Source: Methanobacteriota archaeon
Lineage (GTDB): Archaea > Halobacteriota > Methanosarcinia > Methanosarcinales > Methanosarcinaceae
DNA length: 60,189 nt
NCBI GenBank assembly: GCA_030054735.1
Contig: JASGVX010000037.1
Location: 1-60,189, forward strand
Direction: 5' to 3'
Of this stretch, positions 12,786-46,796 are shown piece after piece. Under the pieces are notes generated by a model, which ran no database searches, was not told where the DNA came from, and saw nothing but the letters and a program-made list of their open reading frames with translations. Each line of letters begins with the position of its first letter. Within the stretch, counting starts at the first letter, position 1. A program made the translations under genes and the position numbers.

Positions 12786-12795
12786 TTCTCATAAT

Positions 12796-21549: not shown

Positions 21550-21570
21550 AAAATACCAGGCCCTGTTCAA

Positions 21571-23380: not shown

Positions 23381-24142
23381 TTATGATAAAGAAGAGTCAG
23401 GCTTTGAAGCCTTATTTTTCACTCCAATCATCCTTACAATTAACATGCTAATCTCAAAAAAGACTACCATAGGCACGGCAACCATTATCTGGCTGAAGAC
23501 ATCTGCCCCAGGAGTTACAGCAGCTGCAATAACCATGACAAGGACATATATATGCCTGCGGTAGGTCACAAGAGTACTGTATTTTACAAACCCGTTTCGT
23601 GTCAGGAAAGTAAGCACTATCGGGAGTTCAAAGACCAGGCCGAAGATAGCTGTTGTTGTTGCTATAAATGAGATGAACTTGAATATTGAATAAGTTGCAG
23701 TCACTCCTGAAATATCTGCATCCATATAAAGGAATTTAAGAAGGAGGGGCAGCATGAGGAAGTAAGAATACGCAACCCCAATGGCAAACATTAATACAGC
23801 CGCTATGATCAGGAAAAAAAACTGGCCTTTTCCAATAGATAGAGGAATTTTAATTGAATACTTTCTTGAAATAGCCCGATAAGTATAGAATGCAATAATA
23901 GGCAGGGTAAATAGCAGCCCTATTATGATAGATAGCTTAAGCTTAAGCATCATCACTTCCAGGGGAGATACATAAACCAGTTTTGCACCTTCCGGCAGGA
24001 GGTCGGTTTTCATTCTATCGATCAGGGGACCGGTAAACTGAAAGGACACGATTATGCCTGTGAGAAGAACTGCGGCTATCACAAGCAGTTTATTTCTCAG
24101 GGTCACCAGGATTGCACTTAAATTTTCAATAGCTTCTGACAT
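23381..24142 (-). CDS. tatC: Twin-arginine translocase subunit TatC (first paralogue)
   Basis: The 253-residue protein has six membrane helices and is part of the Tat receptor for folded proteins with twin-arginine signals. It keeps the C-terminal half signatures VFELPIVLTFLTRNG (the E170 position of E. coli TatC) and TPGADVFSQIMVAVP. The N-terminal signature HLxELRxRL is here ILVTLRNKL, so the E15 glutamate is missing. The LYxHERR motif with E103 is also absent (RKYSIKIPL). The gene is divergent from the second tatC at 24698, which has the opposite pattern of conservation. Confidence 0.9.
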   Translation of the reverse strand: MSEAIENLSAILVTLRNKLLVIAAVLLTGIIVSFQFTGPLIDRMKTDLLPEGAKLVYVSPLEVMMLKLKLSIIIGLLFTLPIIAFYTYRAISRKYSIKIPLSIGKGQFFFLIIAAVLMFAIGVAYSYFLMLPLLLKFLYMDADISGVTATYSIFKFISFIATTTAIFGLVFELPIVLTFLTRNGFVKYSTLVTYRRHIYVLVMVIAAAVTPGADVFSQIMVAVPMVVFFEISMLIVRMIGVKNKASKPDSSLS

Positions 24143-24697: not shown

Positions 24698-25474
24698 ATG
24701 GACTCACAGCAAACAGGCAATGTTAACCCCTCCACAGATGCATCCGGGAAGAATTCATACGCAACCGGTGTCCCGGGAGATTTTGAAGAACCCGTTATGG
24801 CCCACCTCTTCGAGCTCAGGAACCGGTTAGCTATCGTATTAATCTGGCTCTTTATAGGAATATTTATTTCGTTTCCATTTTCGGCTAGAGGAATGCTGTT
24901 TATCTTGAGAGAGTTCGTAGGTCCCGGCTTTATCATGTCATCATATACTCCACTTGAATGGACCTTTGCCCGCCTTAAACTCTGCCTGGTATTTTCCCTT
25001 GCAATCTCAATTCCCTTGTTCTTTTACCAGCTTTACAGGTTTGCAGCCAAGGGGCTTTATCCGCATGAAAGAAGCTTCTTCCTCAAAGTCATCCCTGCGT
25101 CTTTCCTGCTTTTCATCCTTGGGACTGCAATAGGCTACTTCCTTGTCCTGCCTGTGATGTTCAAATATATTCTCTTCTATTCGGGTGATGTGGCTACAGC
25201 ACAGCTTTCAGTCCATAATACTCTCTCAGCCGTGACCACAATCCTGGCAGGTTTTGGAGTTGTATTCCAGCTCCCCCTACTCGTGGTCTTTGCAGTGAAA
25301 ATGGGACTTGTACAGTACCAGACCCTCAAAAAACAAAGAATTCTTATCTACAGTGCAATTCTGGCTTTCTCCCTTTTCCTTTCCCCGGACCCTACTTTCA
25401 TTGCCCAGATTCTTGTGGCGGTCTTGCTGGCAGTCCTATTTGAGTTCAGCTTGCTGCTGATCAGGCTATTTTAA
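24698..25474 (+). CDS. tatC: Twin-arginine translocase subunit TatC (second paralogue)
   Basis: The 258-residue protein has an N-terminal hydrophilic extension of about 30 residues and six membrane helices. It keeps HLFELRNRL (E15 position) and GLYPHERSFF (E103 position), the two glutamates implicated in twin-arginine signal recognition in E. coli. The third conserved glutamate is replaced: VFQLPLLVVF instead of FELP. The ending LLIRLF shows no C-terminal tail. It heads a plus-strand cluster with two tatA genes. Its defects complement those of the divergent tatC paralogue. Confidence 0.9.
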   Translation: MDSQQTGNVNPSTDASGKNSYATGVPGDFEEPVMAHLFELRNRLAIVLIWLFIGIFISFPFSARGMLFILREFVGPGFIMSSYTPLEWTFARLKLCLVFSLAISIPLFFYQLYRFAAKGLYPHERSFFLKVIPASFLLFILGTAIGYFLVLPVMFKYILFYSGDVATAQLSVHNTLSAVTTILAGFGVVFQLPLLVVFAVKMGLVQYQTLKKQRILIYSAILAFSLFLSPDPTFIAQILVAVLLAVLFEFSLLLIRLF

Positions 25475-28939: not shown

Positions 28940-29182
28940 ATGCCGCTTACAATGCTTTCAGAAGGAAATGGCTGCAGGGTTAAAGAAATTCGGGCAGGCC
29001 AGAATCTCAAAAGAAGGCTCGTGGAGATGGGTTTTACGCCTTCGTCTCCCATCCGGCTTATAGGATGTGAAAGAGGACGCCTACTCGTTAATGTGAACGG
29101 AGTTCGTTATGCTCTGGGAAGAGGTATGGCGATGAAGATAATAGTAGAACCCGATTCATTTGAAGGTGCAGGACTTGGCTAA
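28940..29182 (+). CDS. feoA: Ferrous iron transport protein A (second FeoA)
   Basis: The protein of about 80 residues is another FeoA domain (PLTMLSEGNGCRVKEIRAG, then LVEMGFTPSSPIRLI). The ATG at 28940 fits the domain start; a TTG at 28928 would add four residues. Its end overlaps the start of feoB, indicating translational coupling. Confidence 0.9.
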   Translation: MPLTMLSEGNGCRVKEIRAGQNLKRRLVEMGFTPSSPIRLIGCERGRLLVNVNGVRYALGRGMAMKIIVEPDSFEGAGLG

Positions 29183-31172
29183 GGATAAGATCAGGGTTGC
29201 ACTTACTGGAAACCCCAATGTAGGAAAGACAACTGTTTTCAATGCAATTACCGGAGCTAAGCAAAAGGTAGGAAACTGGCCTGGGGTAACAGTCGAGAAA
29301 AAAATAGGCATTAAGGAGTATGCAGGGCATTCTCTTGAAATTGTAGACCTGCCAGGGACCTACAGCCTCACAGCCTATTCTGCAGATGAAATTGTTGCCA
29401 GAGACTATATCATTGAAGAAAAACCCGGTATTGTAGTACAGATTCTCGATTCGATGAACCTGGAACGCAACCTCTACCTGAGCACTCAGTTAATGGAAAT
29501 GGACACAAAGCTTATCTTCGCTCTTAATATGTCTGACCTTGCTGAAAAGAGAGGGGACAAAATAGATCTCTCAATGTTTGAGAAACTCCTGGGAGTTACG
29601 CTGGTCAGGACAACAGCAAGCGAAGGTGAAGGAATTAATTCCCTGCTTGACGCCATTATCTCAAAAGCAAGTTCAGATATGTCCTCCTCCCATAAGATTG
29701 GATATGGGGAGGAAATAGAAGACAGGATCAGCATTCTTGAAAAGATTATCTCTGAAGATAAGGCTCTGGTAAGCAAATATCCCTCAAGGTGGTTGAGCAT
29801 TAAGCTGCTTGAGGGTGATGAAAATGCTTTTTCAAAGCTTTCTTCGTCAAGCATACAGCCTGTTGTTGAAAGGTTCCTTTCAGGTCTGGACCTTGAAGAA
29901 TATGAAGCCGAAATGGCTGATAAGCGTTACGAATTCATAAGCAAGATCCTTCCTCAGGTAGGAAATACCTGCGTTGAAGATGTATCAGCCTCCGACATGA
30001 TCGATAAGGTAATTACTAACAGGTATCTGGGAATCCCTATATTTCTCAGCCTGATGTGGGGTATGTTTGAACTGACCTTTACCTTCGCAACCCCTTTCAT
30101 GGAACTTATTGATATGTTCTTTGCTTTCCTTGCTGAAGTGATAGCTACTAACCTGGAGACTGCCTGGCTGGCATCCTTGCTGGGAGACGGAATCGTTGCA
30201 GGCGCAGGCGCAGTTATGTCCTTTGTACCAAACATATTCATCCTGTTTTTCCTGCTAGCTTTGCTTGAAGACAGCGGGTATCTGGCAAGAGCCGCTTTTA
30301 TAATGGACAGGCTAATGCATTCAATGGGAATCCAGGGAAAATCCTTTATCCCGATGCTTATGGGGTTTGGGTGTACAGTTCCGGCTGTGATGGCTACCCG
30401 TACCCTTGAAGATGAAAAGGACCGCCTGATTACAATGCTTGTTACGCCTTTCATGTCCTGCGGAGCCAGGATACCTGTCTACGTGCTGCTTGCCGGGACT
30501 TTTTTCGGAAGACAGGCAGGATCCATAATTTTCGGGCTTTATGTACTTGGAATAATTGTAGCCATCCTATCTGCCAGGCTGTTTAGAACCTTCATTTTCA
30601 AAGGTACGCCTTCTTCCTTTATCATGGAACTTCCTCCTTACCACAGGCCTTCACCTGGCAATTCTATTAAATATATGTGGAACCAGGGCTCCCTTTATCT
30701 CAAGAGGGTGGGCTCTGTAATCGTTGGAGGAGTAGTTGCCATCTGGCTTCTTGCATATTTCCCGCAAGGAGTTGAATACGGAAGTGCAGAAAGTTACATA
30801 GGCAGCCTTGGAAAACTGATCGAGCCTCTTGTATCTCCGCTTGGGTTTGACTGGAAGATTGCAATTTCCCTGATTTTTGGGTTTGTTGCTAAAGAGGTTG
30901 TGATTGGATCCCTGGGAACTCTCTACGGCACCGGGGCAGATGAAGGGATGCTGTCTTCGGTTCTTCTAGCGGACCCCGTCTTCACACCTGCTGTTGCACT
31001 CGGGCTTATGGTGTTTACCCTTCTTTATGTACCCTGTATAGGAGCAGTTGCAGTAATAAAAAAAGAATCCGGCTCCTGGAAATGGATGCTTTTTTCAGCA
31101 AGTTATTCGACTGCAGTGGCGTGGATCCTGTCCTTTGTAACAGTAAAGATTGGAAACATAATATTTGTATGA
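29160..31172 (+). CDS. feoB: Ferrous iron transport protein B
   Basis: The 670-residue permease imports Fe2+. The N-terminal G domain has GNPNVGKTT (G1), DLPGTYSL (G3) and NMSD (G4), followed by a helical GDI-like region. The membrane part from about residue 290 has the Gate motifs, including the cysteines in MGFGCTVPAVMATRTL and MSCGARIPVYVLLAGTFF. The start is TTG at 29160 or GTG at 29166, both inside the upstream feoA. Length is typical for archaeal FeoB, without a C-terminal cysteine tail. Confidence 0.95.
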   Translation: MKVQDLAKDKIRVALTGNPNVGKTTVFNAITGAKQKVGNWPGVTVEKKIGIKEYAGHSLEIVDLPGTYSLTAYSADEIVARDYIIEEKPGIVVQILDSMNLERNLYLSTQLMEMDTKLIFALNMSDLAEKRGDKIDLSMFEKLLGVTLVRTTASEGEGINSLLDAIISKASSDMSSSHKIGYGEEIEDRISILEKIISEDKALVSKYPSRWLSIKLLEGDENAFSKLSSSSIQPVVERFLSGLDLEEYEAEMADKRYEFISKILPQVGNTCVEDVSASDMIDKVITNRYLGIPIFLSLMWGMFELTFTFATPFMELIDMFFAFLAEVIATNLETAWLASLLGDGIVAGAGAVMSFVPNIFILFFLLALLEDSGYLARAAFIMDRLMHSMGIQGKSFIPMLMGFGCTVPAVMATRTLEDEKDRLITMLVTPFMSCGARIPVYVLLAGTFFGRQAGSIIFGLYVLGIIVAILSARLFRTFIFKGTPSSFIMELPPYHRPSPGNSIKYMWNQGSLYLKRVGSVIVGGVVAIWLLAYFPQGVEYGSAESYIGSLGKLIEPLVSPLGFDWKIAISLIFGFVAKEVVIGSLGTLYGTGADEGMLSSVLLADPVFTPAVALGLMVFTLLYVPCIGAVAVIKKESGSWKWMLFSASYSTAVAWILSFVTVKIGNIIFV

Positions 31173-31658: not shown

Positions 31659-31985
31659 ATGGAGAAAACAGACATGGTACTCGGATACATGTATGTGTTA
31701 AAACAGATAGCAGAAGTGGATAAGAAAGGAAATATGTCTTTCAATGAGATATCTGGACATTTGAAAATGAGTACGCAGCAGCTTAGAGGCTTACTCGATA
31801 TAATGGAAGGAATGGGACATGTTGAAAAAGTTATGGACAACCAATCTGTCTTTTCCTCTCCCTGCAATGCTTCCTGCAAAAGGTGCGGATGTTGCGGGTT
31901 TTTAGAAAAACCTTCCGTTTCAACAGCTATGGTTTACAGGCTGACAGAGAAGGGAAGGAGAGTATGTCACAATCAGACAGGCTGA
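31659..31985 (+). CDS. FeoC-like winged-helix protein with cysteine cluster
   Basis: The 108-residue protein begins with a winged-helix fold (NEISGHLKMSTQQLRGLLDIMEGMGHVEKV) and then has five closely spaced cysteines (CNASCKRCGCC). Proteins of this kind at the end of feo operons are treated as FeoC-type regulators, and the cysteines could hold an Fe-S cluster that senses iron or oxygen. The start could be the ATG at 31659 or the one at 31674, which has better spacing from GGAG. Confidence 0.8.
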   Translation: MEKTDMVLGYMYVLKQIAEVDKKGNMSFNEISGHLKMSTQQLRGLLDIMEGMGHVEKVMDNQSVFSSPCNASCKRCGCCGFLEKPSVSTAMVYRLTEKGRRVCHNQTG

Positions 31986-32286
31986 ATCTGAAAAAATCCT
32001 GATGAATAAAAGCCGGAAATTTCAAAACCTGAATACAATCTTCCTGACCTTAAAGTTGTATAAACAGATCAGAAAAAGAACAGGATCAAAAAGCGAATAG
32101 AACCAAAAAACAAGACCAATACGAGAAACAAAAAACGAGAACTGAAAACATACTTTAAAACTTTAAGACAACAGGTGAAAAACAGGTTTTAAAAATATTT
32201 CGGTTTAGCGGAAAGGAAGTATGATCTGTATTTACCGGAAGCAATCCGCATCATGCAGGGTTTTTGTCGAAACTGAACGCTACAGG

Positions 32287-32703
32287 ATGATCGTCAGATC
32301 TGTTTTTGTTGATGCCTGAATGGACGGAATTAATGTAAAGGACAAACCAGTCTTGATCATTGCCGAAGTGATATTGATGTATTTTACCGTTCAAGAAGTC
32401 AAAACCTTGCTGAATAAGCTAATTCCGAATTTCCCAGGGCAAGAAATGCTTCTGGAAGTAATAAGCCCGGACATCGTAAAGATGAGAAAGCAATATGATG
32501 CGGTCGGAAAAATGGATGTTAAGTTTCGATGGGGAATAAAAAGCAGCCAAGAGGAAACCTACAGTAAGCAAATTAGAGTGGTCAATGAGCGGAACTACTT
32601 TGATTGCCACAAAGACAGGTGGGGCCGGCTGTGTTGGCTGGTTTTTATTCCTTCTTTTAAAAACCGTTTCAATAACAGGGTAGTCTATTTGCAATTTACT
32701 TGA
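32287..32703 (+). pseudogene. Remnant of an LCM/TcmP-type methyltransferase gene
   Basis: From 32320 the frame encodes MDGINVKDKPVLIIAEVIL and PGQEMLLEVISP with FRWGI, the middle to C-terminal part of the leucine-carboxyl-methyltransferase-like family. The N-terminal SAM-binding half is absent. Upstream in the same frame, SVFVDA is followed by TGA where the family usually has a Trp (the WMDG position). It is therefore an N-truncated gene with a nonsense codon. The 127-residue part might still be translated from the ATG at 32320 but could not bind SAM. Confidence 0.7.
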
Positions 32704-33000: not shown

Positions 33001-36000
33001 ATGGAAAAATCACACTTGATCTTCAGTAATCAATGGCAATTGAGAAAAATTCCTGCCATGCTATTGACAGTGTCAATTATTATTTCATTACTTTCAGCCA
33101 CTGCATATGCGTGCGATTCGATTGTAGAAAACTGCACCAGCAGCACAAACATCAACTGTGCGTCAGGCAACGCATTCCAGGCAGATAAGGAAAAAACTGC
33201 CGTGTCTTTGTTCGCCGGAGGCTGCGGAACAGAGTCTGATCCGTACCAGATAGCAACTGCAGAACAGCTTAACAGAGTTCGATGCCATTTGGACAAAAAC
33301 TTTATTCTGATTAATAATATTGACCTGTCCGGCTATGAGAACTGGGAACCCATAGGTACTTTCCAGCCTTTGTCCGACAAACCGGAAGATGAAGATACTC
33401 CGGATCCTGAAGTAGCTTTTACCGGTACCTTTGACGGTAACGGATATACTGTTTCCAACCTGAGCATCTATCAGCCGGAGGGCATGGCAGTTGGCTTGTT
33501 CGGGTGCTTGGTCGGAGATGAGGAAAATCCAAGTTCCATATCCAACCTGAAAATGAAAAATGTGGATGTGACTGGAAATGCTTTTGTGGGTGGCATGCTC
33601 GGCGTTCAATGTTTGAAAGGTAACTTGGAGCGCCTAAGTTTAACCGGTGATCTAAATACAATTCGAGGCAACGCCAATGTAGGTGGCATTGTGGGCGGCA
33701 GCCTGAGTGATATGAAAGACTGCAACGCTGCGGCGGACATCGTGCTCCGAGGTGATGGTGCGAACCACGCGGGTGTTTTGAGCGGTGGACTCGAAGACGG
33801 TTCGTTGCTCAACTGCACGGCGACAGGAGGCACGGTGACGGTGGAAGGAGACAATATCTATGGCGTGGGCGGCCTGGCCGGCTGCGTAATTGAGGGAAAG
33901 GCGGCCACCAACTGCCATGCAAACGATGTGACCATCATAGCTCTGGGTGAAAACAATGCCATGATCGGCGGATTATTGGGGCATACGGGAGCTTCTAACG
34001 CGGATCATAAAACCCAGGTGACGGGCTGCTCGTCTGGTGTCACCATTATTGTGTCTGACAGCACGAACCGGGTCGGCGGGCTGGTGGGCAGCGGGTTTTA
34101 CCTGGAGCAATATAAAGAGTACTACCCCGTGCCAACCATGTACAGGATCGCGAATTGCAGCACCTCGGGCAGGATAATCGGTGGCTTTGAATCCATAGGT
34201 AGTATCGCAGGCTATTCACATAATTCTATAATAGAAAACTGCACCAGCACCATGACCACCTACCGTGCGTCGGAGAACGTACCTCAGGTAGGGAAGGAAG
34301 AAACAGAAACGTCGACCCCAACAACCGGAATACTGGTAGTAGCGCATGGATCAGATGAAGATGAGTGGAACCAGCCGGTGCGGGACGCTGTAGAAGGTAT
34401 TGATTGTCCGTATCCTGTAGAATTGGGTTTCCTGGAGTTTGTTGAAGGGGAAGATATCAGTACGGCAATTGCCAGTCTGGAAGATCAGGGTGTTGAACAC
34501 ATCATCACTGTTCCGATATTTGTGGCCTCGGCTTCAGATCATATTGAAGAAATTAAATACATAGTGGGAATCCCCAGTTCCATCACAGAAGAGGAAGCAG
34601 ATGAAGAGGATCTGGAAGTAGTTTCGCACAGTGCCGAGATTGAAATGAGATTGGCCATGGATGACCACCCCCTGGTAGCAGAAATTCTAGGTGAACGTAT
34701 TGCAACGGTTAGCCAGCAGTCAGATCAGGAAATCGTGGTACTGGTAGCTCACGGTACCTCCACAGCGGAAGACCTGGCAGTCTGGAAAAATAACCTGGCT
34801 TCTTTAGGGAAGCAGCTTAAAGAGAGCTTTCAATTTTTGGATGTCGACTACGGCTTCGTGGCGTTAGGTGAACCGAATGCCAGGGCAGTGGTAGAAGCAC
34901 ATCTAGCGGAAAATCCAGGAGCTTCCATTATTGTTATGCCGGTGATGCTTTCCGAAGGCACATTCACAAGTACCAAGATTCCTGAAGTGTTGTCCGGATT
35001 AACTTACGTATATCCGGAGGAAGGACAGCGTTCTTTACTGCCCCATGATAAGATTTCTCAGTTGATTGTTGCCCGTGCCTGTGATGCCATTGGGGTTTTT
35101 GCGGGCGGAAACGGAACTGAAGAATTCCCCTATCAGATAGCAACACCTGAGCAGCTTGACCGGGTGCGATACTATCTGGACAAGCACTTTGTCCTGATAG
35201 CAGATATCGATCTCAGCAAATATGGAAATTGGACACCCATCGGAACCTTTGATGAAAATCTTTTCGAGAACAACGGCCATAGTGATATTGCCTTTTCCGG
35301 TACGTTTGACGGCAACGACCACACCGTCTCCAATTTGACTGCAACTCACCAGAATCTTGTCGGTATCGGCCTGTTCAGTGTGGCATCCTCCGATGCTGTG
35401 ATTAAAAACCTGACTGTGGAAAATGCCTCGGTTATCGGCTACATGTCAACGGCAGGCATTATAGGCCATAACTGCGGCTCAGTGGAAAATCTGGCGCTTA
35501 AGGGTGAAAATACGATCTCCGGTGTCAACTTCATCGGCGGCATTGTTGGCGGACACGTATTTGGAAGTGTTAAGAACTGCACGGTTGAAAATGTAATGAT
35601 TAACGTGCTGGACGATAACGACTTTTCAAGCGGGTGCATCATCCAGCACGATGTGGAAAATCCGGCACTAATCGAAGACTGCTCGGTCAAGTTTATAATG
35701 AACACATCCAACGCCACACACATCGGCGGGCTCCCAGGCATGGGACCTTACTATATGAGAATGGAAACAGTGTTTTCCATCAATAATTGCAGCGCGGTTG
35801 GTCAAATAAACGTAGAAGCCACTCCAGGTGTGATTGCCGGACGCGCAGAGAACTGTACCATAGGCAGTGAAATCAGCCGTGCCGTAAACTTAGATGGTAA
35901 TTCCCTCCAGGAAAAGATTGGAACCACCGATAGAATGTACGAAAGCTCCGACCAGCCGGAAAGTGTGGAAGACCTTTCCGTCTGGGCAAATAGTGGCAAC

Positions 36001-37953
36001 GGTAGCTTTGAATCTCTTGTCAATTATGTAAACGACGATGCACTAAGTGGCGTTTGGAACGCCGCATCTTCCTCTGAGATGGCACAGATGATGGCAAGAA
36101 TGTTTGGCATGAATGTCACTGACGGCGCATCTCTAAAGGCAATGTTTGCAAATATGGCAGCGGCTCCAGCAAATAATGGTACACAGATCTACCTGATAGA
36201 ATTTAGTAATGATTACAAGACCATCGATTTTTGTGATCAGGAAGGCAATGTCATCGAGTCTCACCCTTACACCTTTGTGGAGAACAACAACAATCTGGGA
36301 ATCTTGGCCGGAGAGACAACCTATGTATTCAAGGCGGATGACGATGCTGGTGTGCTGACTTATATTGCAATGCACGAACCTCACTTTGACGAGAATATGG
36401 ACAAAACCACCATGCCCTCCCACATCCACTTCTACTATGCCGAAACGAAGGATACGCTGGGAACTTACAAACCGGACAGCGTAACGCTTAGCAGCTGGAT
36501 GCCGACTATACTACAGAGAGGCGATGAATTCAGTACGGTTGATAGGGTGGCTATGCTCGAATGCCTGTTTGGCATCGATAACGCTGATGAAGAGCTGGCT
36601 GCCGATATAGGAATATTAGTAGTAGCCCATGGATCAGATGAAAATTGGAACCAGCGTGTACGTGAATCAGTAGCAGAGGTTGAAGTTCCTTATCCAGTAG
36701 AATTAGGCTTTTTGGATACGGAAACTGAAAATATATCCAGAGCCGTGCAGGAACTGGAGGAAAAGGGGGTAAAACGAATTGTGGCTGTACCGATTTTCGT
36801 TTGTTCTGCTTCTAGCCACATGGAAGAAATAAAATACATGCTCGGTTTGCCCAGCTCACTGGACGATGCAGCAGCACAAGAAGAAGGTTTGGATAGAATC
36901 GAAAAAACTGCCATTGTGGACTTGACTCCAGCTTTAGATGATCATTTATTGATTGCCGAAATTCTCAATGAAAGATTGAAAAACCTTAGCCAGAATTCTG
37001 AGAAAGAAATAGTGGTTCTGGTTGCTCACGGTACAGCTGATCCGGAAAATCTAGCTGTCTGGCAAGAAAAGATGGCATCCCTGGGGGATAAACTGCAGCA
37101 AATACAGGGATTCAAGCAAGTATGTTACGGATTTGTGGGGGCTGGAAAACCCAACATAAGAACCGTGGTCGAAGAGGTGAAAAATAATAACCCTGACTGC
37201 ACAGTTATTGTAATGCCTGTTATGTTGAGTGAAGGGGTTTATACTGACAGTAAAATACCCACCAGCCTGGAGAGTATGACCTATCTGTACCCCGAAGCCG
37301 GGCAAAGGGCGCTATTGCCTCATGCCAATATAGCCCAATATATTGCATTTTGTGCCAATGATGCGATCATAGGAGACATAAAACTGCAGGAATCAGGACA
37401 GACATATGTGGTTCGGTATTCCGATGTTGCGCTTGAGGAAGGGGGAAAAGTTTGCGTTTGCGGTTCCTTTGCTTATCGGGCTATGCAGGAAGCGCTCAAG
37501 GTTTTAAGCCCTGGTGCTGTTGCTGAGTGCAGGCGTTTTACAGTAGTCGGACCAAACTCGGAGGGCACTGAGGCTGCACTGCAAACAATACTGGCTACTG
37601 GCAGATACTGTCTGGAAAAACGGCCTCATAATGAGGATTATTATAGTTATCAGATTAATGATCGTAACAACGGCAGGACATTGACAATAAAAGCGTGTCA
37701 CGAGGTATTTCCGGAGAACTTCTATGCCTTAAAAAGTAAGATCAAAAATAATACCGCAACCTCTGAGGAAATAAAGACTTTTCAAGCTCTCCGGGTTCAA
37801 GTGGTGGAAAAATTGCGCTGGGAGGATGCCGATAATTTGTTAGTAATAGAGGAAAACACCGTTGAATCCGATGAGAAGCTGAAGGCGTCAACACCACTCT
37901 ATAGAGAATTATGGATGTTTCTTCAGGTTTATTGGTGGAGGTTTCTATCCTGA
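33001..37953 (+). CDS. Secreted GLUG-repeat / CbiX chelatase / ZinT-like fusion protein
   Basis: The 1650-residue protein starts with a signal peptide (MLLTVSIIISLLSATAYAC). Residues about 60-420 and 700-970 contain GLUG-like beta-helical repeats (YQIATAEQLNRVR, FTGTFDGNGYTVSNL, GLFG). Each block is followed by CbiX-type chelatase lobes: AHGS at about 447 and AHGT at 582, then AHGS at 1209 and AHGT at 1341. Residues about 990-1190 look ZinT-like (DDALSGVW, then HIHFYY and SWMPT). The C-terminal ~190 residues are unassigned. CbiX lobes insert or bind metal at tetrapyrroles inside cells, so a secreted version suggests metal or tetrapyrrole capture. The gene looks G+C-richer than its flanks and lacks an obvious membrane anchor, suggesting acquisition. 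Confidence 0.8.
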   Translation: MEKSHLIFSNQWQLRKIPAMLLTVSIIISLLSATAYACDSIVENCTSSTNINCASGNAFQADKEKTAVSLFAGGCGTESDPYQIATAEQLNRVRCHLDKNFILINNIDLSGYENWEPIGTFQPLSDKPEDEDTPDPEVAFTGTFDGNGYTVSNLSIYQPEGMAVGLFGCLVGDEENPSSISNLKMKNVDVTGNAFVGGMLGVQCLKGNLERLSLTGDLNTIRGNANVGGIVGGSLSDMKDCNAAADIVLRGDGANHAGVLSGGLEDGSLLNCTATGGTVTVEGDNIYGVGGLAGCVIEGKAATNCHANDVTIIALGENNAMIGGLLGHTGASNADHKTQVTGCSSGVTIIVSDSTNRVGGLVGSGFYLEQYKEYYPVPTMYRIANCSTSGRIIGGFESIGSIAGYSHNSIIENCTSTMTTYRASENVPQVGKEETETSTPTTGILVVAHGSDEDEWNQPVRDAVEGIDCPYPVELGFLEFVEGEDISTAIASLEDQGVEHIITVPIFVASASDHIEEIKYIVGIPSSITEEEADEEDLEVVSHSAEIEMRLAMDDHPLVAEILGERIATVSQQSDQEIVVLVAHGTSTAEDLAVWKNNLASLGKQLKESFQFLDVDYGFVALGEPNARAVVEAHLAENPGASIIVMPVMLSEGTFTSTKIPEVLSGLTYVYPEEGQRSLLPHDKISQLIVARACDAIGVFAGGNGTEEFPYQIATPEQLDRVRYYLDKHFVLIADIDLSKYGNWTPIGTFDENLFENNGHSDIAFSGTFDGNDHTVSNLTATHQNLVGIGLFSVASSDAVIKNLTVENASVIGYMSTAGIIGHNCGSVENLALKGENTISGVNFIGGIVGGHVFGSVKNCTVENVMINVLDDNDFSSGCIIQHDVENPALIEDCSVKFIMNTSNATHIGGLPGMGPYYMRMETVFSINNCSAVGQINVEATPGVIAGRAENCTIGSEISRAVNLDGNSLQEKIGTTDRMYESSDQPESVEDLSVWANSGNGSFESLVNYVNDDALSGVWNAASSSEMAQMMARMFGMNVTDGASLKAMFANMAAAPANNGTQIYLIEFSNDYKTIDFCDQEGNVIESHPYTFVENNNNLGILAGETTYVFKADDDAGVLTYIAMHEPHFDENMDKTTMPSHIHFYYAETKDTLGTYKPDSVTLSSWMPTILQRGDEFSTVDRVAMLECLFGIDNADEELAADIGILVVAHGSDENWNQRVRESVAEVEVPYPVELGFLDTETENISRAVQELEEKGVKRIVAVPIFVCSASSHMEEIKYMLGLPSSLDDAAAQEEGLDRIEKTAIVDLTPALDDHLLIAEILNERLKNLSQNSEKEIVVLVAHGTADPENLAVWQEKMASLGDKLQQIQGFKQVCYGFVGAGKPNIRTVVEEVKNNNPDCTVIVMPVMLSEGVYTDSKIPTSLESMTYLYPEAGQRALLPHANIAQYIAFCANDAIIGDIKLQESGQTYVVRYSDVALEEGGKVCVCGSFAYRAMQEALKVLSPGAVAECRRFTVVGPNSEGTEAALQTILATGRYCLEKRPHNEDYYSYQINDRNNGRTLTIKACHEVFPENFYALKSKIKNNTATSEEIKTFQALRVQVVEKLRWEDADNLLVIEENTVESDEKLKASTPLYRELWMFLQVYWWRFLS

Positions 37954-38018
37954 GTAGTATGCTTTGACATCAACTATGCGGCAGACAACAGACAGCGTAC
38001 ATGAAAGCAAAGATAACT

Positions 38019-38142
38019 AAGGAATGGTGAAAATTTGATTTCAAACACTTATACCCAATATTGTCATTAATGGTATTAGGAAGTGCAATTATAGAGCCAT
38101 TAACAAAGTGAAAATTTGAAGTCATATTTCAACTATTCCTAA
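38019..38142 (+). mobile_element. 124-bp MITE-like repeat, copy 2
   Basis: This is the partner of 1536-1659, the same length and orientation. The inverted ends (CTAAGGAATGGTG and CAACTATTCCTAAG) are slightly longer here. Confidence 0.75.
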
Positions 38143-38273
38143 GTACTTTTTCAGGCAGAAGCAGTACGCTGTCTGAACCCGCACCAGAATAAAACGCAGA
38201 GCAGCTTAACTATGTGATGTATTAAATTATCCTGTGTTTATGCCTCTATTTATATTGAATTTACACAAATTTG

Positions 38274-38359
38274 TAGTGTTGCGTCAATCTTTATAAATTT
38301 AACGATTCTGAATAGCTGCAATTGAATTCATACGATATTTTGCTGCTGACGCGACACTA
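38274..38359 (+). mobile_element. 86-bp TA-flanked MITE, copy 1
   Basis: The inverted ends read TAGTGTTGCGTCA and TGACGCGACACTA. Taking the outer TA as target duplication gives an 82-bp element, the insertion signature of IS630/Tc1-mariner transposases. Two other 86-bp copies are in the window. Confidence 0.75.
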
Positions 38360-38782
38360 GTCAGGAATTGCAGAATGAAACACATGGAAAATTCAAGAAT
38401 GGCTGCTTTTCTAAGCTCGTTATACTACTCTGACAGCACTTATTCTGTCGAGTGGGCTATTTTTTCGCAAGAGAAACTGATATCATGGTGTGTAGCACAT
38501 GTTGATATTTTCGTATTTTGGCACCAGGCTCTACAATGTCAGTCAGGGATTTAAAAGAGCTCATCACAAAGGATACATTACCACAAATAATGTAGCCCGG
38601 AAAGTGAGAGTGAACATTTGAGGATACCATGCCATTTGTGTCCCAGGTCACCTTCCTGCATTCAAAAATCAGCAGAATTTACTCAGAGATCTCTGGCGTG
38701 AAATGAAATTTTTTTGTACACAAAAAAGGTTTTATACTACAAATAACTTTCTATATCTAAACTATATTTCATGTAACAGTAA

Positions 38783-38804
38783 AATTTTCGTATATCCGAA
38801 AATT
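38783..38804 (+). promoter_or_regulatory. Orphan copy of the feo-type palindrome
   Basis: TTTTCGTATATCCGAAAA (38785-38802, extended by AA/TT on each side) differs from perfect symmetry at one position pair and closely matches the feo operator. A TATA-like ATTATAAATAGG follows immediately, exactly as at feo. No gene follows except a possible 14-codon ORF at 38832. Confidence 0.65.
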
Positions 38805-38967
38805 ATAAATAGGTACCAGCGTATTATAGATATGTGGAAAAGATTAGTAAGTCAAATAGACTGTGCAAGAAAATAAAAATCTGAAAAAAATCGGGAAAAC
38901 TATAACAGGCTGGAATTATGTGTTCGGAAAACGTCCGGCTCTTAGCCAAAAAAACATCATTTAAAGC

Positions 38968-39053
38968 TAGTGTTGTGTCAGTCATCAAGGATTATACGAT
39001 TTTGTATTGTTGTAATCGATTATATACGACATCTTAACTCTGACGCTACACTA
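38968..39053 (+). mobile_element. 86-bp TA-flanked MITE, copy 2
   Basis: The ends are TAGTGTTGTGTCA and TGACGCTACACTA. It is more diverged internally from copy 1 than copy 3 is, but has the same length and ends. Confidence 0.7.
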
Positions 39054-39669
39054 GGCGGAATCTTAAGCTGAATGGAAATGACATTTATAAAAAATAGGAG
39101 GTGAAAACAAGAACAGGTGAAAACAGAACAGAGTTCAAAAGCAGGAAACAGTATAATCTGAACTGAGTGCTGGCAAATCTACCACAATTGACAAAGATAC
39201 AGGATCAAAAATGAGAACAAAATAAAGAGTATTTAATACTCTAAGACAACAGGTTACGCAATCCAGGCTTTTGGACTCTTCCATATCAACGGAAAGGAAG
39301 AGCAGGATAGGGTGTCTCCTCCTGACCTGAAAAACTCCCGAAAACAACTCCTGAAAATTTCTGTCCTGCATCCTTTTCCGTAAAAAATGCAGAACTTACG
39401 GGCATTTGAAAAGCCAATTATTTGTTTGAAGAGTGAACTATTTTCAGTAGCAACTATCTAATATGTAGGTGCAAAGAATCATATGCTTCTTTTTTCCTTT
39501 CAACTGTTCGCATCTCCAACTGTGATACCATAGGAAGAAGTCTAATTCGCGATTACCAAAATGGTAATGTCAAATGGAATATAAACTTGAAGAAATCGAA
39601 AGAGATTATATCCTCCTTTCGGCAGGTCGACATTTATTCTACATAATTTTTGTTGATGCCTATTTTGAA

Positions 39670-39733
39670 ACGCATATGAAATTCTTCGAATAACAGGCAC
39701 AAAAATGAAAGTACTTGGAAGCACTTTCATGCT
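39670..39733 (-). repeat. Hairpin-bearing intergenic repeat, copy 2
   Basis: This is an inverted copy of 203-272, inserted between TTTTGAAA and TACATAGT of the surrounding element. The element at 470-745 lacks it at the same place. Confidence 0.65.
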
Positions 39734-39881
39734 AAATATACATAGTATTTGTACGTAACTTCTAGGTTTACATTTTATCAATTATTAATATCTCATACTC
39801 AATTATTAATATCTCATACTAAACTTTTATGAAAAAATGACCCAGATATATATATGTGGTGATAGTTGAGCCAGATGTTAA

Positions 39882-40040
39882 CCTGAGTTCCCAAAATTTA
39901 AGCGCATAAATCTAATTTCACTAATCTACTATGTCAGATGATTGTTATTTTAAATTAGAACTTATTATTTATGCGCTTAAGTTTAAGCACATAATTAGAT
40001 ATCAGAAGAACCTTGTGCGCTTAAAAAGGCGGAAGTTAGG
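39882..40040 (+). mobile_element. 159-bp MITE-like element, copy 2
   Basis: It is near-identical to 2457-2615. It is flanked by GTTAA on both sides (39877-39881 and 40041-40045), and the host element elsewhere (470-745) is uninterrupted at this point. This fixes the ends as CCTGAGTTCC and GGAAGTTAGG. Confidence 0.85.
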
Positions 40041-40157
40041 GTTAACCAACTTTCAAACTCATTTCTAGCTAGGGAATACCATAAAACTACATCAAGAAAA
40101 ATTTTCTGATTTTTAATGTCGACCTGCCGAATGTAGGTTTAATTATCTCACATTTCA

Positions 40158-40848
40158 GGCTGTCTCAAAAATAAAGTTAATTGAGCCTTTGCCAAAATTG
40201 TTAACAATACTTTAAATGTAAAAAAAATGTCTAAAATTGCTTATTTTATCACAAAATTATATTTAGTACCTTTAAAATTGAACTAGGATTTACGCACTTG
40301 AAATGTAAAATCAGATACATGCGGGCTCGTCAACATTATTTGAGTTTATACAGTTAAGTCATTCCGCTCGTGGTTTTCAATTCAACTGCGTAAGTCCTAT
40401 GAACAATAAAATGCCACTGAACACGGAATCCCGATAAATAACCTAATTAATGATGTATATATTTTAAAAATTAGCATTTAGTATAATCTTTTTTAATAAA
40501 TCTCATAAAATTATAAATATTAATTATGTGTTAAAAATTTAAACAGAATTTTTTTCTATTTTATAAGAAGAAAAATAATCATAATTATAATTAAGGATTT
40601 AATATTATACTAAATTGGTCTTAAATCATCTTAAATAATTTTTTTACAAAATATATATTACAACCAAATATTATTGAAAAATAAGGAATTTGATGGAAAA
40701 TGGCAAAACCTCAATTCTATAGTAGTGCCAATTTTTTCCACTACAAGGTTAATTTATGTCTAAATTTCTCTATTTTAAGTGGGTTTGTTTTTAAAGTTAA
40801 CGTATCTCATTAGCCAATTGTAGAAATGGTTTGAGTTTTGAGACAGCC
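40158..40848 (+). mobile_element. 691-bp non-autonomous element with GGCTGTCTCAAAA ends
   Basis: The perfect 13-bp inverted ends GGCTGTCTCAAAA and TTTTGAGACAGCC bound a non-coding AT-rich interior. A truncated copy is at 10720-11060. The ends resemble those of several DDE-transposase IS families, but no transposase is left. It contains a 116-bp insertion. Confidence 0.75.
40284..40399 (+). mobile_element. 116-bp MITE with TAGGAYTTACGCA ends
   Basis: The left end TAGGATTTACGCACTTGAA and the right end, read inversely TAGGACTTACGCAGTTGAA, differ at two positions. TGAAC is duplicated on both sides (40279-40283, 40400-40404). The related copy near 10829 is unoccupied, reading TTGAACAACAAAATG. Confidence 0.88.
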
Positions 40849-41196
40849 CGATTTAATCATTTTGTGTTTAATCCTCGATATTCCTATCTTTTTTAATAAC
40901 TATTTTCCTATCTTTTTTAATAACTATTCAGCCTATATAAAACAACATCAATAGCCATCTTTACCTACATTCAATAAACAATTTCTGTACTTTGAGTTTC
41001 TTTGACTGCTGGCTATTGACTGCGTTTTCTCATTGTTCATAAGTTAATTCTCGGTTTCCTTGTTTTCACAGAATCAATATCAATAGAGATGTTTTGATAG
41101 GCTGAATAGTTACCTTTTTTATTACCATTACACAACCGCCTTTCCACATAAGCACAATTCTTAGATAGCTACAATTATATGCTTTTCCTGCATAAA

Positions 41197-41222
41197 CGAA
41201 TATAAATATAGAAAGATATTCG
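41197..41222 (+). promoter_or_regulatory. Inverted repeat around the TATA box of the DtxR gene
   Basis: CGAATAT and ATATTCG form a perfect 7-bp inverted repeat with a 12-base spacer. The left arm abuts the TATA-like TATAAATATAG. It lies about 25-50 bases before the start codon, a plausible autoregulatory site. Confidence 0.5.
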
Positions 41223-41247
41223 GCATACAAAAAAGAGTTCGAGTTTT

Positions 41248-41691
41248 ATGACTACAGAAAGAGATGAAGACTACCTGAAGATTATCGCCTCAATCGTGGA
41301 AGAAAAAGGATACGCAAAAGTTAAAGATGTAGCGAAAGAGCTTGGACTCGTCCCCTCTACTGTAACAGGCATGTTTAAAAAGCTGGATAAAAAAGGCTAT
41401 ATAAATTATGAAAAGTATGGCGGAGTAACCCTTACTGGAAAAGGGACGGAAATTGCCAGAAAGACCAGAGAAAAATACAGCATGCTCAAAGAATTTCTCA
41501 TGCACCTTGGGCTTGATGAAGAGACGGCAGAAGAAGACGCCTGCAAGATTGAGCATATACTTGACCCAAAAACAGCGGAAATCCTGAAAAAGTTTCTGGA
41601 ATTTACGAATAAAGATGATGAGTCAAAAATCTGGATAGAGCATTTCAGGTATTTTGTCCAGACCGGAGACTATATACACTGCAACCCTTAA
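41248..41691 (+). CDS. DtxR/MntR-family metal-dependent regulator
   Basis: The 147-residue protein has an N-terminal winged helix (YLKIIASIVEEKGYAKVKDVAKELGLVPSTVTGMFKKLDKKG) and the helical dimerisation and metal-binding domain (FLMHLGLDEETAEEDACKIEHIL). The ligands C and E/H in EEDACKIEH are in the usual places. It has no C-terminal SH3-like domain, so it is the short MntR-like form. Fe2+ or Mn2+ is the likely co-repressor. Candidate targets in this window are the feo palindrome and its own promoter. Confidence 0.92.
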   Translation: MTTERDEDYLKIIASIVEEKGYAKVKDVAKELGLVPSTVTGMFKKLDKKGYINYEKYGGVTLTGKGTEIARKTREKYSMLKEFLMHLGLDEETAEEDACKIEHILDPKTAEILKKFLEFTNKDDESKIWIEHFRYFVQTGDYIHCNP

Positions 41692-43180: not shown

Positions 43181-43879
43181 CTACCTGAAACCGACAATTT
43201 TTCCTTCCTCCATAAAAGCGATTTTATCACTCATCCATTCCACTACCTGCATATCGTGCGAGATAAATAGAAAACTGATCTCATAATCAGTTTGTAGTTT
43301 TTTTAGAAGAAGAAGTATCTGGGCCTGGACAAGCGGGTCAAGCATGGATGTGGGCTCATCTGCAACTATGAACCCTGGCTTCAGACCAAGTACCCTGGCT
43401 ATTGCAACCCTCTGAACCTGGCCCCCGCTCAGTTCTCTGGGATAGCGAAATAGCAGTTCCTCACTCAGGGAAACGGCCTCAATAAGCTCCTGAACCCGGC
43501 CGCGCTCTTCATCCTTTCTGCAGAGCCTGTGAAGCCTCAGGGGCTCAGCGATGGCATCATAGATTTTCATCTTCGGGTTAAGGCAGGACTCCGGGTTCTG
43601 GAAAATAATCTGCATTTTTGTCCCGAGACTCTTCAGGGCACTTCCTTTGAAGCCTGAGATGTCCTGCCCATCAAAAAGAACCCTGCCAGCGCTTGGCTCC
43701 AGCAGCCTCAAAACCGTTTTCCCAAGAGTAGATTTCCCGCAGCCACTTTTTCCTATAAGCCCAAGGGTTTCCCCTTTATCAATCTCAAAACTGACCCCAT
43801 CAACCGCCCGGTGGATCTCTTTTTTGAACAGACCTGAATAATAGTATTTTTTCAGGTTTTCTACCTTCAACAGTGCCAT
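43181..43879 (-). CDS. Opp/Nik-type ABC transporter ATP-binding protein (F/E type)
   Basis: The 232-residue ATPase has Walker A GKSGCGKST, signature LSGGQVQR, Walker B FIVADEPT and the switch His in FISHD. It is shorter than usual because it lacks the C-terminal oligopeptide/dipeptide extension with the Cys motif. Its start overlaps the preceding ATPase gene by 13 bases, so the two are translationally coupled. Confidence 0.9.
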   Translation of the reverse strand: MALLKVENLKKYYYSGLFKKEIHRAVDGVSFEIDKGETLGLIGKSGCGKSTLGKTVLRLLEPSAGRVLFDGQDISGFKGSALKSLGTKMQIIFQNPESCLNPKMKIYDAIAEPLRLHRLCRKDEERGRVQELIEAVSLSEELLFRYPRELSGGQVQRVAIARVLGLKPGFIVADEPTSMLDPLVQAQILLLLKKLQTDYEISFLFISHDMQVVEWMSDKIAFMEEGKIVGFR

Positions 43880-44895
43880 ATTTCCTCCTTTTCACATCCG
43901 ATAACAGGCTGTGCATTAAGGAGAGGTTGTTCTAAAGTTTCTTTTCTCCTTTCCTTTTCTGAAAGGAAGCAACGGGTAAAGCCTTCCCCATCTGGCCCCA
44001 GAAGTGGAGGATGGACACGTGAGCAGGCATCAAAGCGGAAACTGCAGCGTGGATGGTACCTGCAGCCCGATGGAGGAGAAACGAGGCTTGGAGGCTGCCC
44101 CAGAACTGTCCTGAGACCTTTTCCAGGAAGTGAGTGCAGCAGGTCAAGGGTGTAAGGATGTTTTGGCTTAGAAATTACCGCTTCTGCTTTTCCGATTTCA
44201 ACAATTTCTCCTGCATACATGACTGCAAGCCTGTCCGCAAGACTTCCAGCAAGATCAAGGTCATGTGTGATAAGGAGCATGGAAGCATTTTCTTTGCGGA
44301 CAAGCCCGACAATCAGTTCTGCTATCTGAACTTTCATATCCTGGTCAAGCCCCTTAGTAGGCTCGTCTGCTATCAGGAGTCCGGGCCTGAGGGCAAGACC
44401 TATTGCGACCATAACCCTCTGAAGCATCCCGCCGCTGAACTGGTGGGGGTAGTCGTTTTTCCTCAAAGAGCTTATTCCTACAAGCTCGAGCATATCTCCG
44501 GCTTTCTTTTCAGCTTCCTTTTTTCCCATGCCTTCGTGGTAGCGGTAGATTTCTGCAATCTGCCTGCCTGTAGAAAGGACAGGGTTGATGCAGGCTGAAG
44601 GGTTCTGGAGCATTATTCCTATTTCCTTTCCCCGAAAGCGCCTCATTTCCTTTTCAGGCAGGGAAAGGAGATTCGTACCTCTGTAGACGATTTTTCCATC
44701 AAGTTTTGCATTCTCTGAGAGCAGCCTCAAGACAGCTTTTCCGAGAGTGGTTTTTCCACATCCGGTCTCCCCGATAAGCCCCAGAATTTCTCCATCTCTG
44801 ACCTCAAGGGAGATGCCTTCATTGGCTTTTACAATGCCTTTCGAGGTTTTGAAAGAAACGTTCAGGTCTTCTATTGAGAGCAGTGCAGAACTCAC
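43867..44895 (-). CDS. Opp/Nik-type ABC transporter ATP-binding protein (D type)
   Basis: The protein of about 342 residues has Walker A GETGCGKTT, signature FSGGMLQR, Walker B LLIADEPT, and the C-terminal oligopeptide-transporter extension with CRYHPRCSFRFDAC. That cysteine pattern can hold an Fe-S cluster in DppD-like proteins. The GTG at 44895 overlaps the permease stop as GTGA, the best start; the frame stays open further upstream but overlaps the permease gene. Confidence 0.9.
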   Translation of the reverse strand: MSSALLSIEDLNVSFKTSKGIVKANEGISLEVRDGEILGLIGETGCGKTTLGKAVLRLLSENAKLDGKIVYRGTNLLSLPEKEMRRFRGKEIGIMLQNPSACINPVLSTGRQIAEIYRYHEGMGKKEAEKKAGDMLELVGISSLRKNDYPHQFSGGMLQRVMVAIGLALRPGLLIADEPTKGLDQDMKVQIAELIVGLVRKENASMLLITHDLDLAGSLADRLAVMYAGEIVEIGKAEAVISKPKHPYTLDLLHSLPGKGLRTVLGQPPSLVSPPSGCRYHPRCSFRFDACSRVHPPLLGPDGEGFTRCFLSEKERRKETLEQPLLNAQPVIGCEKEEIWHC

Positions 44896-45791
44896 CCTGC
44901 GAGCACCTCCTGGCTTACAGGCTGCCCGGAACTTTCCCTCAACCCGTCTCCTGCAAAGTTGAATGCAAAGACTGTGAATATGATCATCAGGCCTGGGAAA
45001 AAGGTGACATGGGGAGCTGTACGGAGATATGGGACCCCGGATTTGAGCATGGAGCCCCATTCCGGGACAGGAGGCTGGATCCCCAGACCGAGGAAGCTCA
45101 GGGCTGAAGCAAAGATTATAACGTGTGCGATTTCAAGAGTCCCAAGAACGATTACAGGTTGTATGCAGTTTGGAAGGATATGTTTTCGCATAATGTAGAA
45201 ACTTGAAGGCCTGAGAGCTCTTGCAGCTTCCACAAAAGCCCTCTTTCTTAGAGAGAGTACCTGCCCGCGTACAAGCCTGGCATAAGCAGGCCAGTGGGTT
45301 AAGGAAAGGGCAAGGACAACACTCGAAAAGCCCGGGCCGAGCAGCCCTGCAATCACAAGGGCAAGGATGATATTAGGAAAAGCCATCACGATGTCCACTC
45401 CTCTCATTATAGCTTCATCAAGCAAGCCCCCCCTGTACCCTGAAAGCAGACCTATAGCCGTTCCTGTAACAGACGTTGCTGCAACTACAAGAATTCCGAT
45501 TCCAAGAGAAATGCGCGTACCGTAAATGACCCTTGAAAAAATACAGCGCCCAAGTTCATCTGTCCCAAAAGGGTATTCTGAAGAAGGAGACAGAAGCCTG
45601 TTCTCAAGCCTCTGGGCAAAGGGGTCATTAGGAGCGATTTTTGGGGCAAAGAGTGCAAAAACGCAGAGGACAGCAATGAGCAGGAGGCCTGAGACTGCAA
45701 GCCAGTTCTTTCCAAACTTCCCTATATTCAGCCTTTTTTCAGCCAGGCATTCCTTTTTGGCAATCTTTATTTTTTCAATCATGTCTGTCAT
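44892..45791 (-). CDS. Opp/Nik-type ABC transporter permease (C type)
   Basis: The 299-residue inner-membrane permease has an N-terminal cytoplasmic segment and six helices. The conserved loop that contacts the ATPase is EAARALRPSSFYIMRKHILPN, and the ending is NFAGDGLREss. The FGTDELGRCIFSRVIYG sequence is diagnostic of OppC/DppC/NikC. It overlaps the preceding permease by 17 bases. Confidence 0.92.
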   Translation of the reverse strand: MTDMIEKIKIAKKECLAEKRLNIGKFGKNWLAVSGLLLIAVLCVFALFAPKIAPNDPFAQRLENRLLSPSSEYPFGTDELGRCIFSRVIYGTRISLGIGILVVAATSVTGTAIGLLSGYRGGLLDEAIMRGVDIVMAFPNIILALVIAGLLGPGFSSVVLALSLTHWPAYARLVRGQVLSLRKRAFVEAARALRPSSFYIMRKHILPNCIQPVIVLGTLEIAHVIIFASALSFLGLGIQPPVPEWGSMLKSGVPYLRTAPHVTFFPGLMIIFTVFAFNFAGDGLRESSGQPVSQEVLAG

Positions 45792-46716
45792 ATCTTATCC
45801 TCGGGTCAAGAACTGCATACAGGAGATCAACGGCAAGGTTGGAGAGGGAAAAGAGCACCGCTATAAAAAGGACACAGCCCTGGATCATGGAAAAGTCCAT
45901 AGCAAAAATCGAGTCAACAAGTAGTTTTCCGATGCCGGGCCAGGAAAAGATAGTTTCCACGATCACGGCTCCTCCAAGAAGGTAGCCAAACTGCATTCCT
46001 GCAAATGTAAGAACCGGGAGAAGAGCATTTTTCATGGCATGCCTGATAAGGACGGTACCTTCGTCAAAACCCCTGGCGCGGGCAGCCACAATATATTCCT
46101 GCCCCATAACTTCAATAAGGCTTGCTCGGGTAAGCCTTGCAGTAACAGCAGCCATTGAGGTTCCAAGAGTAAAGGCAGGTAGGACAAAATGTTTAAGGCT
46201 TCCGTATCCGAAACTGGGAAACATTTGGAGTGTCAGGGCAAAAAGCCAGATCAGTAGAAGCCCAAGCCAGAAGTTAGGAATAGAAACTCCTAAGAGGGAA
46301 ACAAACATGCAGCCGCTGTCAAGCAGGGTATTTTTTCTGAGTGCGCTCAGAACCCCCGCAGGCAGGGCTATCATGAGAGAGACCAGGAGGCTGGCAACTG
46401 CAAGTTCTGCAGTTGCAGGAAGTTTCTGTAGAATTTCAGTGAGGACATCTTCCGAGGTCACAAGAGATTTTCCAAGGTCAAGCCGGAGCAGGTGGCCAAG
46501 CCATATAAGGTACTGAACATGCACTGGAGCATCAAGCCCTTCTGCCTCCCTCAGGGTTTCGATCTGGCTTACGCTCAGGTCATCCCCGTACCTCGCAAGG
46601 GCAATAACCTCTGCAGGGTCACCGGGGGCAAGGTACATCGCGGAAAAAACTACGAACGTAACTCCTGTGATTACAATGGAGACCATAGCCAGTCGCTTTG
46701 CTATGTATTTCCACAT
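45775..46716 (-). CDS. Opp/Nik-type ABC transporter permease (B type)
   Basis: The 313-residue permease begins WKYIAKRLAMVSIVITGVTFVVFS and has the loop YIVAARARGFDEGTVLIRHAMKNALLPV and the ending LLYAVLDPRIRYD, all typical of OppB/NikB. It follows the binding-protein gene after 80 bases. Confidence 0.92.
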   Translation of the reverse strand: MWKYIAKRLAMVSIVITGVTFVVFSAMYLAPGDPAEVIALARYGDDLSVSQIETLREAEGLDAPVHVQYLIWLGHLLRLDLGKSLVTSEDVLTEILQKLPATAELAVASLLVSLMIALPAGVLSALRKNTLLDSGCMFVSLLGVSIPNFWLGLLLIWLFALTLQMFPSFGYGSLKHFVLPAFTLGTSMAAVTARLTRASLIEVMGQEYIVAARARGFDEGTVLIRHAMKNALLPVLTFAGMQFGYLLGGAVIVETIFSWPGIGKLLVDSIFAMDFSMIQGCVLFIAVLFSLSNLAVDLLYAVLDPRIRYDRHD

Positions 46717-46796
46717 GGGTATCTTCCAAACTTTAGATTTTACCAGCTTTCATTTTTTCCGCTTTTTTTTCCGCTTTCATTTTTTGAACTCTATTC

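Follow-up and report, generated by a model that had tools for sequence, protein, structure and literature searches.

Proteins of the CbiX type normally handle metals and porphyrin-type rings inside cells. What, then, might four CbiX lobes do in a single protein that carries a predicted export signal? The question is raised by a gene in a 60,189-nt stretch of DNA from a methanogen of the Methanosarcinaceae (contig JASGVX010000037.1 of assembly GCA_030054735.1), referred to here as the window; the source genome (G000) is a 2.88-Mb draft in 149 contigs. The original prediction described a secreted fusion of GLUG repeats, CbiX lobes, and a ZinT-like segment, possibly scavenging metals or tetrapyrroles for importers nearby. 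Below, we examine the protein, its relatives, and its gene neighborhood, and we ask which reading these best support.

Domain organization and predicted export

A single open reading frame of 1650 codons spans exactly positions 33001 to 37953 (+ strand, as are all features below unless noted) and is open from the signal peptide through the last domain. Judged by its reading frame, its Pfam and NCBIfam families, and its dN/dS values, it encodes a putative exported multidomain chelatase-like protein of 1650 aa. Hits and alignments give the order signal peptide, GLUG block, bilobal CbiX unit (type I), GLUG block, possible ZinT-like segment, bilobal CbiX unit (type II), and FmdE-like domain, after which about 29 terminal residues have no similarity to relatives. 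The layout proposed originally was largely right but overlooked the C-terminal FmdE-like domain.

The predicted signal peptide (aa 1 to 37; 33001 to 33111) has a typical hydrophobic core, with a hydropathy of 2.5 over aa 17 to 31 compared to 1.0 for the cytoplasmic CfbA of the same genome, and AYA at residues 35 to 37, just before aa 38. Nearly all homologues with a complete N terminus, including those of G002, G016, and Syntrophomonas wolfei, begin in a similar way, which agrees with the proposed secretion. Against the whole protein, the Pfam Glug model matched in four stretches (E = 3.4e-11). GLUG block 1 (aa 66 to 430; 33196 to 34290) gave an E value of 5e-14 on its segment and is 81% identical to its counterpart in G014, while block 2 (aa 697 to 985; 35089 to 35955) is weak on its own (E = 0.009) but has homologous blocks in relatives. 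The paired bilobal units and the paired GLUG blocks of the original description are thus present (Pfam CbiX and Glug), although its simple internal duplication is not: the type I and type II units are ~55% identical and fall into separate clades of the tree, so that the duplication is, on this evidence, one between two old module types.

Two tatC genes lie adjacent and divergent elsewhere in the window (23381 to 24142, − strand, and 24698 to 25474, + strand).

CbiX lobes retain chelatase active-site residues

Membership of the protein in the CbiX sequence family is beyond doubt. Pfam CbiX matched the whole protein in four stretches (E = 6e-48), an NCBIfam CfbA-type model did likewise (E = 1e-46, with 157.9 bits against a cutoff of 120, a score summed over the four lobes), Pfam CbiK matched too, and a search of PDB sequences returned SirB and CfbA. 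As had been claimed, each lobe carries an AHG(S/T) histidine; with the first residues of the motifs at aa 448, 583, 1209, and 1342, the histidines are H449, H584, H1210, and H1343. Since the lobes score best with the nickelochelatase model, the metal could be nickel or cobalt.

The type I unit (aa 441 to 696; 34321 to 35088) is defined by two Pfam CbiX stretches (E = 2.5e-24) and by its tree clade; its candidate site residues are H449, E474, and H514 in lobe A, H584 and F655 in lobe B, and additionally H682. The type II unit (aa 1200 to 1455; 36598 to 37365) is defined by Pfam CbiX (E = 4.8e-26), family conservation, and a Foldseek match to SirB, and has H1210, E1234, and H1273 in lobe A, H1343 and Y1414 in lobe B, plus D1314-H1315 and H1441. 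Foldseek matches of the type II model included SirB (E = 9.5e-7, probability 1.00), CbiK, and CfbA; the AlphaFold2 models, built from shallow alignments of 4 to 5 close rows, were of poor quality, and this one had a pLDDT of only 50 and low TM-scores. In both units, lobe A keeps H, E, and H at the positions of the SirB/CbiX-L site, while lobe B retains the AHG histidine and has F or Y in place of the second histidine of the small CfbA lobe. The active site of SirB and CbiX-L is located in the N-terminal half (PMC4063343).

These residues are kept far from the window. Equivalents of H1210, E1234, H1273, D1314, H1315, H1343, H1441 (the histidine of an LLPH motif), C1485, and C1487 were each found in ~30 to 36 rows outside the close clade, with the lobe A H, E, and H retained in 34 to 36 homologues and the H-E-H set, the lobe B histidine, and the CxC taken together in ~32 to 36 divergent ones. 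Comparison with homologues gave dN/dS values of 0.22 to 0.28 for the type II module and 0.13 to 0.25 for the ZinT-like segment; the single type I pair gave 0.15, and the values for the C-terminal module of the window protein were 0.23 to 0.25. The protein is under purifying selection, and this constraint, together with residue conservation, points to a working site rather than filler.

The FmdE-like domain and a possible ZinT-like segment

The C-terminal domain (aa 1457 to 1621; 37369 to 37863) contains the C1485-x-C1487 pair. Pfam FmdE did not match the window protein itself and fell below the cutoff with the homologue L032 alone (0.019), but it matched the homologue L086, which has three CbiX2-FmdE units, with an E value of 9.3e-20 over residues that BLAST aligns to the window domain. 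The latter is therefore probably FmdE-like, by transitive homology. The gene for L086 (2301 to 6833, − strand) encodes a 1511-aa protein with a dockerin-like C terminus and adjoins an MMPL transporter.

The segment at aa 988 to 1191 (35962 to 36573) was predicted to be ZinT-like. Pfam and NCBIfam searches with it gave no ZinT (PF09223) match, sequence and profile searches found no ZinT among PDB sequences, and its AlphaFold2 model, built from five near-identical rows (pLDDT 54), gave no fold match with Foldseek. ZinT as an established domain was accordingly dropped. On the other hand, hhalign aligned the segment profile to a profile of E. coli ZinT (NC_000913) and six plasmid homologues with a score of 35.0 (P = 1.6e-4) over 44 columns, compared to a maximum of 19.6 in 150 column shuffles; the segment profile included a second copy, 28% identical, taken from G014, and without this copy the match was not significant. 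The zinc ligands H167, H176, and H178 of E. coli ZinT are matched in the alignment by one H and one HxH of the segment, which are not kept in the G014 second copy. What survives of the claim is thus a resemblance that is suggestive, not established. The segment occurs in 3 of the 112 genomes of the archaeon's own family and in both Syntrophomonadaceae. A search for the ZinT family in Bacillota gave one subthreshold hit, and a bacterial candidate for the segment (L133) was rejected as a chance match, being located on the antisense strand of a pgk gene.

A family shared by archaea and bacteria

The window protein is a member of a family of exported, chelatase-like bilobal proteins, which is spread over Halobacteriota and also includes some Bacillota. 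With the type II module (A1) as the query, matches were obtained in 19 of 295 Halobacteriota genomes at an E value of 1e-20 or better, in 8 of 398 genomes of the phylum of S. wolfei at a threshold of 1e-25, and in 2 of 63 genomes of its order; six of the eight phylum-level matches are proteins of 256 to 269 aa without extra domains. Relatives carry different, independent surface devices, namely, three SLH domains (both Syntrophomonadaceae and G705), PGF-CTERM (L083), and dockerin (L086). Two loci in drafts assigned to different families (L089, 4531 to 6426, in G057; L107, 5664 to 7559, in G080) hold an identical CbiX2 module, so one of these drafts may be misbinned.

The closest relatives of the window module outside its genus are bacterial: it is 82% identical to that of Syntrophomonas wolfei subsp. 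methylbutyratica, with 85.7% DNA identity over 1.9 kb, and 80% identical to that of a Syntrophomonadaceae metagenome-assembled genome (MAG), compared to ~38% for other genera of its own family. Because the nearest copies outside the genus are those of Syntrophomonadaceae, the comparison shows the gene to have passed between the methanogen genus and Syntrophomonadaceae, in one direction or the other. Archaeal and bacterial rows are intermixed within the close clade of the tree, and an ABC gene of the MAG is 84 to 86% identical to that of G014. The sister of the close clade is the Bacillota row G705 (98/97), which is long branched, and an archaeal placement of the clade was not rejected by the AU test (P = 0.37).

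Association with ferrous iron uptake

The original view of the neighborhood overlooked feoB and feoC just upstream and a methyltransferase remnant at 32320 to 32703. feoB, encoding a ferrous iron transporter, is at 29160 to 31172 (Pfam FeoB_N, 4.4e-63), a feoC-like regulator gene is at 31659 to 31985 (Pfam FeoC, 9.8e-13), and a gene for a DtxR-type iron-dependent regulator follows at 41248 to 41691 (Pfam Fe_dep_repress, 6.3e-19); the last is also found 3′ of the homologue in G016 and G002 (82%). Across the family, FeoB, FeoA, FeoC, and DtxR-type regulators are the recurring neighbors. FeoA or FeoB was present near 17 of 44 family loci, drawn from many genera and one bacterial genome, compared to 1 of 40 controls, which were 18-kb stretches taken from eight of the family-locus genomes. 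Fisher's test gave P values of 3e-5 and, without four same-genus loci, 6.7e-4, which are indicative only, since the family loci are not fully independent. At the other 27 loci, the available stretch contained no Feo genes, many of the contigs being short. The plainest array is L094, in which an exported CbiX2 protein of 355 aa is followed by feoA and feoB in the same direction. These data support a linkage of the family to iron uptake.

The "importers nearby" of the original prediction fare less well. A NikABCDE-type importer is indeed encoded at 43181 to 48371, 5 kb from the CbiX gene, but on the opposite strand, and in G016 a different gene lies beyond the shared DtxR-type regulator; the Nik importer was therefore dropped as a conserved partner, and it is Feo and DtxR genes that recur instead. 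Beside the nik-type genes is an O-methyltransferase gene (PF00891; 41809 to 43002, − strand), an arrangement reminiscent of a metallophore locus. Further from the locus, the window encodes an 1849-aa DUF4011-helicase-MTES_1575 nuclease (16021 to 21570, − strand), with the makeup of a putative defense or DNA repair helicase-nuclease, and two TPR-rich proteins (11233 to 15735, − strand), the larger of which matches carbon-nitrogen hydrolase.

The locus has also lost material. In G014, an ABC pair and an LCM-type methyltransferase gene lie, in this order, between feoB and the CbiX gene; the intact methyltransferase of G014 and G016 is 280 aa long (Pfam LCM, 8.5e-14). G066 and G237 likewise encode an LCM methyltransferase, at a distance of two genes from the homologue. 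By blastn, the window matches G014 into the region that follows feoC, and at 32219 the match skips to a point midway through the methyltransferase; the window therefore lacks the ABC pair and the N terminus of the methyltransferase, and a remnant is left at 32219 to 32703. The ABC_membrane/ABC_tran pair, which is MsbA/CydDC-like in family scans, adjoins the homologue in G014, in G016, and at the two bacterial loci L032 and L033 and was lost in the window lineage. The C-terminal region of the window protein is cut short, G014, G016, and G002 have shortened or interrupted copies, and the L033 copy ends mid-repeat. The G014 homologue (L034, 2882 to 15559, − strand) has a frame of 4226 codons that contains three complete CbiX2 units and part of a fourth, and its gene looks disrupted, since the signal peptide is in another frame. 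Downstream of the window gene, ~3.3 kb (37954 to 41247) contain no convincing gene; stretches of it match DNA around homologous loci of the genus at 72 to 85% identity and are perhaps repeat relics.

A model for metal release at the cell surface

Metal or tetrapyrrole scavenging outside the cell is plausible. We tentatively favor, as somewhat short of an even chance, a model in which an exported bilobal class II chelatase-like protein, linked to ferrous iron uptake, frees Fe(II) or another metal from metallo-tetrapyrroles for FeoB. The protein would sit at the cell surface or be secreted, with the GLUG blocks serving as surface spacers or attachment. Each bilobal unit would be a fused pseudodimer of CbiX/CfbA lobes, with a metal site formed by a SirB-type H-E-H from the first lobe and one more histidine from the second. 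Outside the membrane, under anoxic conditions, the cleft would bind a metallo-tetrapyrrole, such as heme, siroheme, or a similar ring, or else the metal that it carries. Working as a chelatase run in reverse, the lobes would extract the metal, and the CxC of the FmdE-like domain, perhaps with the ZinT-like segment, would hold it for FeoB. The identity of the ligand, the direction of the reaction, and the handover to FeoB are inferred. No electron donor for dechelation is evident, whereas HmuS, by comparison, needs NADH. It is more doubtful that the whole family constitutes an undescribed, widespread group of reverse-acting surface class II chelatases, delivering Fe(II) from heme-like rings to FeoB in anaerobic archaea and some Bacillota and exchanged between methanogens and syntrophs.

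The same lobes could act without catalysis. In a hemophore-like manner, a surface scavenger could pass heme-, corrinoid-, or F430-like rings whole, or free metal, to a transporter such as the ABC pair of relatives. Several copies in one long surface protein suit binding more than catalysis, and both the possible ZinT-like metal-binding segment and the position of the ABC pair beside the gene in the four relatives named above would fit. Yet a full H-E-H site in very divergent members exceeds what binding needs, and the ABC pair, apart from being absent from the window, has a fold found mostly in exporters; we regard this alternative as possible but doubtful. Methanogens require much nickel and cobalt, and a protein whose top NCBIfam match is the CfbA nickelochelatase model, which Pfam CbiK matches too, and which is encoded 5 kb from a NikABCDE-type importer might instead insert one of these metals into tetrapyrroles outside the cell or salvage cobalamin or F430. 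This is improbable given that the recurring neighbors are Feo genes, that G016 has a different gene beyond the shared regulator, that tetrapyrrole precursors are not expected extracellularly, and that the genome has its own cytoplasmic CfbA.

Finally, GLUG repeats, widely varying repeat numbers, the broken or shortened relatives, and the truncated C terminus and neighboring deletion in the window could all indicate a mobile adhesin-type surface protein, decaying in the genus, in which the chelatase lobes are passive repeat filler. dN/dS values near 0.2, nearly invariant catalytic residues, and the compact, GLUG-free L094 protein encoded directly before feoA-feoB speak against this, and we consider it more improbable again. 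If metal release for FeoB is the correct reading, a surface chelatase with a conserved active site beside feo offers a testable iron route for methanogens and other anaerobes beyond free Fe(II), and the family may help anaerobes to obtain iron, or a metal like it, from extracellular ring-shaped cofactors. A survey published in 2021, covering Fe/S pathways of 326 genomes, named FeoAB as the suggested main iron route, and CbiX/SirB homologues were not part of its compilation (PMC8351635). Independently of mechanism, the locus shows that a gene for a surface protein has moved between a methanogen genus and syntrophic fatty acid oxidizers.

Comparison with known systems

The lobes share their predicted fold, the AHG(S/T) histidine, and the lobe A H-E-H with CbiX-S/CfbA, CbiX-L, and SirB, and the bilobal layout with an N-terminal active site with the last two (PMC4063343). 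Unlike these class II chelatases, the window protein is predicted to be exported, has two bilobal units per chain with GLUG and FmdE-like fusions, keeps an AHG histidine in the second lobe of each unit, and is linked to feo rather than to cobalamin or siroheme genes. A place in a cytoplasmic tetrapyrrole pathway fits neither the signal peptide, nor the surface anchors of relatives, nor the feo neighbors. Desulfovibrio vulgaris has a periplasmic CbiK, likewise an exported class II chelatase, but it is a single CbiK-type enzyme without GLUG or FmdE. A periplasmic cobaltochelatase is mentioned in PMC4063343.

Among the accessory parts, the GLUG motif of PF07581 is present as described above. The C-terminal domain resembles the FmdE family (PF02663) most clearly in L086, but it is fused behind CbiX and exported, and the window copy keeps CxC while scoring below the Pfam cutoff. 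The remaining segment resembles the ZinT/AdcA zinc-binding lipocalin domain (PF09223) in a weak profile match, motif order, and three aligned histidines but differs in lacking a Pfam hit and fold support.

The nearest functional parallel would be HmuS of Bacteroidota, a membrane-bound, NADH-dependent, CobN-like class I protein of the hmu operon. It strips Fe(II) from heme under anaerobic conditions, and FeoB is depicted as importing the Fe(II) (PMC12583661). The likeness is one of proposed role only: HmuS has a CobN-like six-domain fold, no sequence relation was found, and neither Pfam nor NCBIfam matched CobN in the window protein. If the model holds, the family would do the work of HmuS with a fold unrelated to it. 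The open-access literature searched contained no description of an exported CbiX protein, of a GLUG-CbiX fusion, or of CbiX beside feo genes, in line with the earlier statement that no system of this form was described. The parts are known; what is new, relative to that literature, is an exported, feo-linked bilobal family with FmdE, together with its GLUG-rich form.
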